This document shows, piece by piece, positions 32,040-36,435 of a DNA stretch of 64,000 nucleotides. How positions within the stretch are numbered: position 1 is the first letter of the stretch; every line of letters begins with the position of its first letter. The stretch comes from Tissierellia bacterium (lineage in GTDB: Bacteria > Bacillota > Clostridia > Tissierellales > Sedimentibacteraceae), in NCBI GenBank assembly GCA_012843025.1, contig DURT01000011.1, positions 40,997 through 104,996 on the forward strand, in the 5' to 3' direction. Position numbers and translations under genes: made by a program. Below the pieces are notes generated by a model. The model saw only the letters and a program-made list of their open reading frames with translations. It had not been told where the DNA came from and did no database searches.

Positions 32040-32280
32040 TAAAAAAAGCGGGTTTCTTCATCAAAGGACGAGAAAACCCGCGGTACCACCTTATTTCCAT
32101 AATGGCTCTTAGAATATATAACGGTAAACCCGTTTAATCCTACTCTTATTTCAGATTAAATGCTCAAAAGCTACCTTCAGCCCACATTGACCTATGGAAT
32201 CTTACAGCCCGTGGATTCCAATCTCTGCAAGGTTTATGAACCTACTCCTCTTTCTCATTGCAAATATTTAATTACATAAC
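32040..32280 (-). promoter_or_regulatory. T-box leader for valS, specifier GUA (Val)
   Basis: Minus strand AATAAGGTGGTACCGCGGGTTTTCTCGTCC...GAAGAAACCCGCTTTTTTT; specifier region CTGAAG-GTA-GC. Confidence 0.92.
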
Positions 32281-32366: not shown

Positions 32367-33938
32367 CTAAAAATTGAAATCCTGCAATATAACCTTTAAT
32401 CTTTTCTGTATTTCAATTACATATTCCCAACAATCTATTGCCTTTGTAACAGGTAATCTTCCTCTGTGGGCAGAAGGATTCCTGTAATCAAGTCTTACCT
32501 TTTCAATAGATTCAACGCAATTTAATAATTTGTTTTTCCTTTGAACCTGAGAAATTTTATTGTTATATAATATATCCCTTGCATACATGTCAAATTCAAT
32601 AAAAAATTCAGGCCTCTCAATTTTATTAACCCGCACTGGTTTGCCGTTGGGATACAATCCTATAAAATACATGACAGAACCTAGGGTGAAATTATCAGGT
32701 TCGATTTCTTTATTTTTTAACACACTTAAAGTACATTCTGGCCAGGAAACGTAATCTTTGCCGTACTTTTCATTTAAATATTTTATATATCCCGAATAAA
32801 CCCTTGTGAACATTTCCATTTCCATGGCTTTTGTTACCAACAAACATACTCCCGAATAATCTAATTCATCGGAGCCTTTCATTCTTTCCATACTGTCATA
32901 GGTTAACTTTGCGGTAGTTAAAAAAACCTTGCTTTCATCAGATAACTTGTCCCACACATCTGTTCCTAAGTATTCAAATAAATCAACTTCATAATTTTCT
33001 TTTGATAAGGTATTACAATAATCTCTCGTCAAATTGCAAATTTCATTTACTATTCTGTCTTGAAGTTTTTTGTATATAATTTCTTTGTCCTTCTCAGTAA
33101 GGGAAGCAGATAGTTTTTTACCATAAATATTTTTCAATTCTTTTATAATTTTATATGTTTCCTGTAATTTATCTATTGGTATACCTGCAGCCACACATAC
33201 CTGCTCCAAAAAGCCTTTGTAACTTTCCATTTCTGCTAGTTTTTTTCGTAACTTTTCATTTTCAGCTTCCAATAAAGCTTTTTCTTTTTCTATTTTTTCA
33301 GTTATTATTTTTTCGATTTTCTTGACAATATCTTCTTCCAACTGCTGGATTGTTCTCATTTTTAGCTCAGCCTGTTCCAATATGCTGTCCTTTTCTTCCA
33401 CTGGAGCAGCACTTACATCTCTTACATCCAATACTTTATTAAGTCCGAACACAACACAATATCTTTGTTTCATAAAGGTATGGTTTATGCCCATTTCAAT
33501 ATATGTAGTATTGTCCGACTCAATTTCCTGACCAAAGATTCCAAAGGAAACAATGGTTGCATCTAAATCCTTTAAAAGAGGCATAATTTTTTTACGAGCA
33601 TAGGTTCTTAAATCAAATAAGAAGATGTAAGAAAATGAAGCTAAATTTATCTGAGAATCACTTTGTGATAAAAATTTACTATATGTAAGTAAGCATATCC
33701 TATCATCATTAGGGTTAATTCCCTGTCTTTTTATCATTTCTGCAAAATTATATTGGAGAGCAAGTGTATCAAAGACCACCAATACTTTCCCCTTTTCCAC
33801 CATCTCCCTGGCTAATCTGCTTGACAGCATTGTCATGCCTGTACCAGGAATTGACATAAGGGAAACCCTTTTATATCCCTCATTTATCTTACTATATATT
33901 TTATTTAATGTTTCACTATGGAATTCTTTTATATCCAT
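32367..33938 (-). CDS. Uncharacterised protein: degenerate SF2-like/P-loop N-terminus, coiled coil, HEPN-like C-terminus
   Basis: MSIPGTGMTMLSSRLAREM, KVLVVFDTLALQYNFAEMIKR, ICLLTYSKFL, YIFLFDLRT; Glu/Lys-rich coiled coil; C-terminal LDYRNPSAHRGRLPVTKAIDCWEYVIEIQ with Rx4H. Confidence 0.6.
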   Translation of the reverse strand: MDIKEFHSETLNKIYSKINEGYKRVSLMSIPGTGMTMLSSRLAREMVEKGKVLVVFDTLALQYNFAEMIKRQGINPNDDRICLLTYSKFLSQSDSQINLASFSYIFLFDLRTYARKKIMPLLKDLDATIVSFGIFGQEIESDNTTYIEMGINHTFMKQRYCVVFGLNKVLDVRDVSAAPVEEKDSILEQAELKMRTIQQLEEDIVKKIEKIITEKIEKEKALLEAENEKLRKKLAEMESYKGFLEQVCVAAGIPIDKLQETYKIIKELKNIYGKKLSASLTEKDKEIIYKKLQDRIVNEICNLTRDYCNTLSKENYEVDLFEYLGTDVWDKLSDESKVFLTTAKLTYDSMERMKGSDELDYSGVCLLVTKAMEMEMFTRVYSGYIKYLNEKYGKDYVSWPECTLSVLKNKEIEPDNFTLGSVMYFIGLYPNGKPVRVNKIERPEFFIEFDMYARDILYNNKISQVQRKNKLLNCVESIEKVRLDYRNPSAHRGRLPVTKAIDCWEYVIEIQKRLKVILQDFNF

Positions 33939-33958
33939 TTTAATCTCCTTTTGTCATA

Positions 33959-35251
33959 TCAATAATTAACCTTCTTTTTTCCCTTTCCTCTCATAAGTAC
34001 TCTCTCTTGTATTTCACCAACCTTTTGTAAAACATTATTTATATCTTTTGTAAGCTTTCCGTCAAATTTTAGAAACTCTCCTTCTACCATGGTATACCTT
34101 ATGTTGCTGGCATCGGAACTATAAATTATTGAAGTTAAGGGATCATAGACAGGAAATGTACTGGCCTTGTTTAAATCCCATAGGAGTAAGTCTGCATCAT
34201 AACCTTCTGCAATTGTTCCTGTATTAAATTTAAGGGCTTTATGACCGTCCATTAGTCTTTTCCATATTTCTTTAGTCTCAAAATTAGTTGCATCACCTGT
34301 AATAAATTTTCCATTTAAAGCAAACATTCTTGCCTGCTCCAAAGGACTTAAAGTATTTGAACTGGCTGCACCGTCTGTTCCAAAAGAATAATTCAACTTA
34401 TCTTTTAATTCATATATATTTCCCTTCCCCATACTTAACTTCATGTAAGTTTTAGGGCTGAAGACAAATACACACTTTTCACTTATATACTTTAAGTCTT
34501 CCTCTAAAGTCCAAAGACCGTGAGCAATGATTACATCTATATCAAATCCTCCGCTTTCATAAAGTACCTGTATGGGGGATTTTCCAGTTTGCTTTATACT
34601 ATCTTCCACCTGTTCCTTAGTTTCGGAAACATGGATGTGTATGCCCACATTTAGCTTTTTGGCTGTATCCACTATTTCTTTTAACTTTTCACCAGGACAG
34701 GTATAGGGAGCATGGGGGCCTAATCTTAATTTAATTCTATTATTCTTGTCTTTATATTTGTTAATAAAACTTTCAGCATTTTTTAACTGCTCTTCATAAT
34801 CATCTACAAGCCCGAATACAGTTGGGGCAATATCTGCTCTTATACCCACATCTTCTACAGCCTTGTAAACGGATTCTTCAAAGAAATAATGGTCTGCAAA
34901 TGCAATAACTCCGTTATTTATCATTTCCAGTGATGCTATTACGGTTCCCCAATAAACATCATCTGCTTCTAATTTACTTTCATAGGGAAAAATTCTCTCA
35001 TTAAACCAATTTTCAATGGAAATATCCTCTGCTATTCCCTTCATAATGTTCATGGGAGAATGGGTGTGTAAATTCACAAAACCCGGTGTAATGTAGAGAT
35101 TACTGCAATCAATTACCTGGTAATCTCCTTCTTCTACTTCTCCAGAAATCTTTTTAATCTTACCTTCTTCAATATAAATATTCTTATTTTTGCCCAGGCT
35201 TCCGTCTTCATAAATAATAGTTCCGTTTTTTAATAATATTTTTTTATCCAT
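33959..35251 (-). CDS. Amidohydrolase (MTA/SAH deaminase-like, TRZ/ATZ family)
   Basis: LYITPGFVNLHTHSPMNIMKGIAED, GPHAPYTCPGEKLKEIVDTA, HVSETKEQVEDS, SFGTDGAASSNTLS. Confidence 0.88.
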   Translation of the reverse strand: MDKKILLKNGTIIYEDGSLGKNKNIYIEEGKIKKISGEVEEGDYQVIDCSNLYITPGFVNLHTHSPMNIMKGIAEDISIENWFNERIFPYESKLEADDVYWGTVIASLEMINNGVIAFADHYFFEESVYKAVEDVGIRADIAPTVFGLVDDYEEQLKNAESFINKYKDKNNRIKLRLGPHAPYTCPGEKLKEIVDTAKKLNVGIHIHVSETKEQVEDSIKQTGKSPIQVLYESGGFDIDVIIAHGLWTLEEDLKYISEKCVFVFSPKTYMKLSMGKGNIYELKDKLNYSFGTDGAASSNTLSPLEQARMFALNGKFITGDATNFETKEIWKRLMDGHKALKFNTGTIAEGYDADLLLWDLNKASTFPVYDPLTSIIYSSDASNIRYTMVEGEFLKFDGKLTKDINNVLQKVGEIQERVLMRGKGKKKVNY

Positions 35252-35268
35252 AACATCACTCCATTTAT

Positions 35269-36102
35269 TTAATTTATATAAAGTTCTTTCAATAAAGCTA
35301 TTTCTTTTCCGTGACCTTCCAGATCATTGGGTGTTTCTAAAAAGAAGGGTAAGTTTCTTAATTTTGGATGATTAATAATCCTTTTAAAGGCATCTATACC
35401 AATGTAACCCTCTCCTATGGTTGCATGACGGTCTTTATGGCTACCTATTGGATTTTTACTGTCGTTTAAATGAATTGCATATAATTTTTCAAGACCTATA
35501 ATTTCATCAAAATCACCAAGAACACCATCCAAGTCATTTACTATATCGTAACCTGCATCATATACATGGCATGTATCTAAGCATACACCGATTTTATCTT
35601 TAAGATCAACATTATCTATAATAAGCTGTAATTCTTCAAAAGTTCTCCCTATTTCAGTTCCTTTTCCCGACATAGTTTCTAATAGCACTGTTGTCGTTTG
35701 CTCCTGTTTCAATATATTATTAAGTGCATCTACAATATATTTAATCCCTATTTCTAATCCTTGTTTTACATGGCTTCCCGGATGGAAATTATATAAATTA
35801 TTTGGAATATATTCCATTCTTTTTATATCATCTTCCAATACCATTAATGCAAATTCTCTTGCCCTCACATTATTAGAGCAGATATTCAAGGTATAGGGCG
35901 CATGGCCTAGAATTTTTGCAAAATTATTTTCTTCCATTAAATTTTTCAACTTTTCTATATCATTTACATCAATATCTTTAGCTTTGCTGCCTCTGGGATT
36001 GCGGGTAAAAAATTGAAATGTATTGGCTCCAATTGATATGGCATCTTTCCCCATTGCTTCATATCCTCTTGATACTGATAAATGACAACCTATTTTTAGC
36101 AT
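35269..36102 (-). CDS. nfo: Deoxyribonuclease IV (apurinic endonuclease)
   Basis: [91 protein letters not shown]. Confidence 0.96.
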
Positions 36103-36256
36103 AATTCCTCCCTAATAGTCATAACATACAAATAAATATACCACAAAAAATTAATTTTAACTATACTTACGAACAAATTACCCAATCTTATGCCTTATCA
36201 CAATTGACAATTGAACTAGATTGTACTATACTTAACTTAACTTTATATTTCAATAT

Positions 36257-36435
36257 TGGTGCGCTGTAGTGCGATAATAGGGAATTAGGTTAAAATCCTA
36301 AACAGTCCTGCTGCCGTGATGAGATAGCGGTCTTTATGCGATAAGCAACCACTGGATATATCCGGGAAGGTAAAGTAACCGCCATGACCTCTAAGTCGGA
36401 AAACCTGCCAATATTGTTGCGTAAAAGCCGCAAAT
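36257..36435 (+). promoter_or_regulatory. Cobalamin (B12) riboswitch
   Basis: gggaattaggttaaaatcctaaacagtcctgctgccgtgatg and the B12-box aagtcggaaaacctgcc, directly upstream of a BtuFCD-like operon. Confidence 0.92.

Follow-up and report, generated by a model that had tools for sequence, protein, structure and literature searches.

A scattered HEPN-like domain family and a member joined to a degenerate helicase-type lobe: candidate RNase effectors

Metal-independent RNase activity is a criterion of the HEPN superfamily. The HEPN fold is built from two helical hairpins, and helices 2 and 3 are separated by an insert. Its established RNase site is an Rx4-6H motif with a polar residue after the Arg; an Ex3[KR] motif often supplies an acidic residue (PMC3710099). 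Fusions of HEPN domains to SF1/SF2 helicases and to parts of restriction-modification (R-M) systems are also established (Anantharaman et al. 2013, PMC3710099). The combination of an inactive helicase lobe with a HEPN domain is already known from eukaryotes, where Caenorhabditis HEPN-T is fused to an inactive N-terminal ATPase domain of a LAF-1/Vasa-like helicase (PMC3710099).

Within the stretch of 64,000 nucleotides analysed here (the window), a gene at 32367..33938 on the minus strand encodes a protein of 523 aa, defined by open reading frame and translation, in which a pseudo-helicase lobe, a coiled coil and a HEPN-like domain follow one another. Like HEPN-T, it combines a HEPN-type domain with a probably inactive first helicase lobe. 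The likeness is one of architecture; HEPN-T, unlike the window protein, carries a eukaryotic Parep1/8 HEPN domain devoid of the Arg and is a proposed RNA receptor rather than an RNase. The DUF4145-like and Abi2/Swt1 families (PMC3710099) have in common with the window domain an Rx4H motif with Asn after the Arg, a conserved Glu in helix 2 (predicted in the window domain), a predicted helix order in which an insert separates helices 2 and 3, and the links to R-M systems, McrBC and helicases that are seen in relatives of the window protein. In contrast to these families, the window domain has a longer insert and an additional invariant Asp, and the profile similarity is moderate. CoCoNuT systems (PMC11090510) have coiled coils, helicases, McrBC parts and RxxxxH HEPN RNases in common with the window protein and its relatives; however, they are multi-gene systems with a McrB-type GTPase, and none is encoded beside the window gene. 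HEPN-MNT toxin-antitoxin systems likewise contain a HEPN domain with Rx4H, but their adjacent nucleotidyltransferase antitoxin gene has no counterpart at the window locus, and the window protein is much larger. As its HEPN-like domain belongs to a scattered family that is often attached to R-M and other anti-phage genes, the window protein is probably related to known immunity effectors of bacteria, as a form not yet described. Within the open-licence literature covered here, a HEPN family that is recognised by neither Pfam-A nor PADLOC, together with its shortened pseudo-helicase member, appears to be new.

The gene and its C-terminal HEPN-like domain

The open reading frame comprises 523 codons with zero internal stops, as expected of an intact gene, and all peptides quoted in an earlier note on this DNA were found in its translation. 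A good ribosome-binding site, AAGGAG at 33945..33950 on the minus strand, can be read directly from the sequence 6 bases before the ATG at 33938. The GC content of the gene is 0.32 and that of the neighbouring genes ranges from 0.32 to 0.39.

Searches with the whole protein revealed no homologue among 60 relatives, of which 24 belong to its own genus, and no match in a scan of genome contigs; the same scan with the C-terminal pair returned a single locus in Schwartzia. A search of 399 genomes of the phylum yielded a C-terminal match in Schwartzia succinivorans (E 1e-23) and further, weaker matches. Profiles built from these matches detected the domain in 14/392 genomes of the class and 9/150 of the order, counts that each include the window's own genome. 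Judged by these matches, the last ~240 residues of the protein represent a domain family of scattered distribution. No full-protein homologue was found by tblastn against phage and plasmid sequences, which gave weak matches only; among these, plasmid proteins of Priestia and Chondrinema are family members by motif and alignment. Candidates at three loci (L006, L007, L019) were judged to be chance matches, and matches to a PHROG tape-measure protein and to NCBIfam AfpA were rejected as coiled-coil or low-scoring.

Based on family members and profile comparisons, the HEPN-like domain with its upstream helices spans residues 281-523 (32370..33098, minus strand). The earlier note had pointed out that Arg-486 to His-491 fits the Rx4-6H motif and had suggested a conservation check. 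In an alignment of 17 family members, Asp360, Glu373 and Arg486 are invariant, while Asn487 and His491 are each kept in 16/17; all five are among the most conserved columns. The last search added seven members that had not contributed to the profile; R[NR]xx(A)H stands at the corresponding position in every one, Arg replacing the Asn in a single case. The conservation of the predicted RNase motif, RNPSAH (Arg486-His491, 32466..32483, minus strand), bears out the suggestion, and Asn487 provides the polar residue after the Arg that is a HEPN trait. The segment from Asp360 to Glu373 (32820..32861, minus strand), both of them invariant in the 17 sequences, lies at the start of predicted helix 2 and is followed by E375-x3-R379; an Ex3[KR] pattern, at 375-379 in the window protein, starts at one of the two Glu positions in 10/17 members.

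The His is missing from two related proteins, which read RNRCGL (L008, the sole exception in the alignment) and RNRWGI (L015); therefore not every member would be an RNase, and these two domains, which have kept the Arg, are probably non-catalytic. The losses would also suit a different reading of the window protein, as a HEPN protein that binds RNA or protein without catalysis, for instance a regulator of translation or tRNA metabolism, and some HEPN domains do bind without cleaving (PMC3710099). However, Arg, Asn and His are intact in the window protein and nearly invariant in the family, and we regard such a role as improbable. Both proteins that lack the His (L008 1018-2142, L015 1063-2175) are Cys-rich, with a possible zinc ribbon, and are encoded beside a dUTPase-like gene.

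For comparison with described domains, profiles of three HEPN families (DUF4145, RiboL-PSP and Swt1) were gathered from genomes. The family matched DUF4145 with a probability of 63% (E 7e-5, one comparison), a match that in this local mode covered mainly the motif region and that falls below the 75-98% typical among HEPN families (PMC3710099). The values were 20% for RiboL-PSP and 4.6% for Swt1, the latter rising to 37% when neither the window sequence nor its closest homologue was included. Control profiles (reversed profiles, helical domains of valyl-tRNA synthetase and P-loop profiles) reached 0.1-1.0%. When profiles were compared end to end, the family reached 27.5, 10.6 and 7.1% with DUF4145, Swt1 and RiboL-PSP, respectively, whereas DUF4145 reached only 0.7% and 0.1% with the other two HEPN families. 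These comparisons favour HEPN families over the controls, with probabilities that are moderate rather than decisive. Neither Pfam-A nor PADLOC gave a significant match for the window domain, and sub-threshold Pfam matches of family members include HEPN_Swt1, HEPN_RiboL-PSP, Abi_2 and Hypoth_Ymh. Confidence in the AlphaFold models was low, with a pLDDT of 51 for the C-terminal domain and 37 for the protein as a whole. In the C-terminal model, an insert separates helices 2 and 3 and the motif falls where helices 3 and 4 meet, an order compatible with the canonical HEPN layout (PMC3710099). A Foldseek search with this low-confidence model gave no significant match; hits to Csm6', sacsin HEPN and Csx1-Crn2 were among 187 non-significant ones to a poor model and were discarded as evidence. 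Sequence searches against the PDB returned nothing relevant. We infer a HEPN fold, and consider it likely that the C-terminal domain belongs to the HEPN superfamily.

The helicase-type lobe, the coiled coil and the closest relative

Residues 1-180 (33399..33938, minus strand) resemble the first lobe of a helicase according to BLAST, profile comparison, alignment and a weak match to Pfam ResIII; lobe 2 is absent. The lobe has a degenerate P-loop, PGTGMT, in which the Walker A Lys is replaced by Met35 (ATG codon at 33834..33836, minus strand; aligned to Lys in L070/L087), and its DExx-like box reads FDLR (Asp109-Leu110-Arg111), with Leu in place of the Glu. Both replacements are present just as the earlier note had described them. 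Its assignment of the lobe to SF2 held in part: a degenerate helicase-type lobe is well supported, but SF2 membership is not. ResIII was the best Pfam match, at 18.1 bits below the cut-off of 22.5, the Walker A Lys and DExx Glu of this SF2 helicase family are replaced (GTGMT, FDLR), and an SF2 profile built here from 10 sequences gave 3.0 bits, within the range of shuffled sequences (up to 7.1). A profile of Schlafen-group-3 helicases (SF1), which was also built here and includes the G519 protein described below, scored 9.8 bits compared to a maximum of 4.2 in 300 shuffles; the match was confined to lobe 1 and did not extend over lobes 1 and 2. By BLAST, lobe 1 aligned to the PGTGKT lobe of the G519 protein (L070/L087) with E 2e-5. 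Taken together, these scores lean towards SF1 rather than SF2. Because the Walker A Lys, the DExx Glu and lobe 2 have been lost, ATP hydrolysis by the lobe is unlikely, in line with the earlier note's reading of a dead-looking ATPase.

A coiled coil was predicted at about residues 180-250 (33189..33401, minus strand), where the single-sequence model forms an unbroken helix, albeit at low confidence. The coil and the HEPN-like domain fall within one and the same BLAST alignment to L070, supporting the proposed position of a coil between the N- and C-terminal domains.

The closest relative found, the G519 protein (L087), is a helicase-coil-HEPN protein of 937 aa and is identified by Pfam as a Schlafen-group-3 helicase (PF09848, E 1e-39). 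It shares with the window protein the order of ATPase lobe, coil and HEPN domain, and the two are 30% identical over 319 alignment columns of coil and HEPN domain (E 3e-34). In contrast to the window protein, it has intact PGTGKT and DESQ motifs, a second lobe and ~240 further N-terminal residues. As the closest relative is an intact helicase-coil-HEPN protein, the window protein seems to be a shorter form whose ATPase lobe has been disabled, and may descend from an ancestor similar to the G519 protein. The missing second lobe and N-terminal part, the altered Walker A and DExx motifs and the lack of an orthologue in 60 relatives would also suit a gene in decay, namely the remnant of a Schlafen-group-3 or other helicase-coil-HEPN defence gene that is becoming a pseudogene and has no present function. 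We think this unlikely: the 523 codons are free of stops and preceded by a good ribosome-binding site, and all conserved HEPN residues as well as the coil have been kept, which a gene without constraint would be expected to lose too.

Relatives in defence contexts and a proposed mechanism

The partners of the HEPN-like domain in relatives, whether joined to it in one protein or encoded by a neighbouring gene, are methyltransferases, HsdS, McrC-like nucleases, helicases, tetratricopeptide repeats and a receiver domain. In one case (L064) the domain follows an HsdS that was assigned by sequence inspection alone. Another domain lies beside a PLD-helicase and an Eco57I-type methylase, and that on the Priestia plasmid lies with an AAA ATPase/UvrD pair and an HNH gene. 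In L088, an AAA ATPase of the McrB type and two methyltransferase-like genes, the latter named from inspection only, precede the McrC-HEPN gene. The Schwartzia locus contains a UvrD-like helicase and WYL-type genes (both recognised by inspection only), and the N-terminus of its protein matches the candidate defence family PDC-M09A (E 2e-12). Several other relatives sit among ordinary genes, as does the window copy. The link to immunity proposed in the earlier note is seen in the relatives, through their association with R-M and other anti-phage genes.

On the Chondrinema plasmid (L063 4170-8651), a RecD-like helicase carries a C-terminal HEPN-like domain and is encoded near WYL and Cas6 genes. 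The nuclease of L088 (8788-16067, G754) is a McrC-like PD-(D/E)xK enzyme with a C-terminal HEPN-like domain, and the locus is possibly a type IV/R-M hybrid with an RNase arm. Two proteins (L168, L169) combine a region that is methyltransferase-like on inspection alone with a coil and a C-terminal HEPN-like domain, L169 having a DLPW-like motif. In L065 (5438-8280, G283), the gene for a receiver-HEPN-like fusion (KRNSVAH) is overlapped by that for a predicted membrane sensor; the fusion protein is possibly a phosphorylation-controlled RNase.

A tentative reading, to which we give less than even weight, is that an undescribed HEPN clade serves as an exchangeable RNase effector on R-M enzymes, McrC-like nucleases, SF1 helicases, tetratricopeptide-repeat proteins and a response regulator, and that the window protein is a derived form whose helicase lobe has turned into a non-hydrolysing sensor. 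If so, an RNase effector family attached to many kinds of defence machinery has been missed by Pfam and PADLOC, and its members form a ready list of candidate abortive-infection proteins. The window protein would then be a small, one-gene example of an RNase under the control of a disabled helicase lobe, and would offer a direct way to ask what an ATP-incompetent pseudo-helicase senses.

For the window protein itself we favour, with modest confidence, a stand-alone HEPN RNase effector that is dimeric, gated by the non-hydrolysing lobe and active in phage defence or stress. The C-terminal domain would act as an endoribonuclease, its site formed by Arg486, Asn487 and His491 where helices 3 and 4 meet, with Glu373 and perhaps Asp360 in a supporting role. 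By pairing two chains, the coiled coil would allow a composite active site to be assembled from their two HEPN domains. The helicase-type lobe, which would not hydrolyse ATP, would serve for binding and sensing and would inhibit the RNase in the resting state. We infer that a trigger, with foreign nucleic acid, a phage protein or some other sign of stress as candidates, releases the RNase, whereupon host and phage RNA would be cut and growth would stop. Since active helicases, methyltransferases and HsdS accompany the domain in relatives, by fusion or as neighbours, and the window genome contains other ResIII-type helicases, the protein might instead be a subunit that works with an active helicase or modification enzyme from another locus of the genome, and its pseudo-helicase would then be a copy used for docking. 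However, no methyltransferase or R-M helicase was recognised beside the window copy, and we rate this possibility as very low.

Genomic neighbourhood

The gene for the favoured stand-alone effector is flanked by an mtaD-like amidohydrolase gene, nfo, a T-box and valS. As the earlier note had it, the gene lies between housekeeping genes and no antitoxin is visible; none is adjacent, nor does any defence gene adjoin it. The gap to the mtaD-like gene is 20 bases and that between the amidohydrolase and the nfo-like gene 17 bases. These short gaps and the common direction suggest one operon, of which the pseudo-helicase/HEPN gene would be the last member. On the other side, a T-box leader (32061-32267, minus strand) precedes valS. 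This operon-like row of housekeeping genes, with the AP endonuclease/amidohydrolase pair on one side and valS on the other, is the setting in which a non-catalytic regulator of translation or tRNA metabolism might be expected, but in relatives valS adjoins a btuF-like gene and the pseudo-helicase/HEPN gene is absent. The position next to valS is therefore no conserved functional link, and a conserved operon with valS was rejected on the basis of this synteny.

In the window, a block at 32367-36102, consisting of this gene and the mtaD-like and nfo-like genes, separates valS from btuF. In several congeners (loci L041, L042, L044, L045 and L057), valS is near a btuF-like gene with neither this gene nor nfo or mtaD in between, and the mtaD homologues of the genus are situated elsewhere. 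The closeness of valS and btuF in these congeners therefore marks the segment as peculiar to this genome, through either insertion here or loss elsewhere. A cobalamin riboswitch (36240-36426, plus strand) precedes the btuF-like transport operon.
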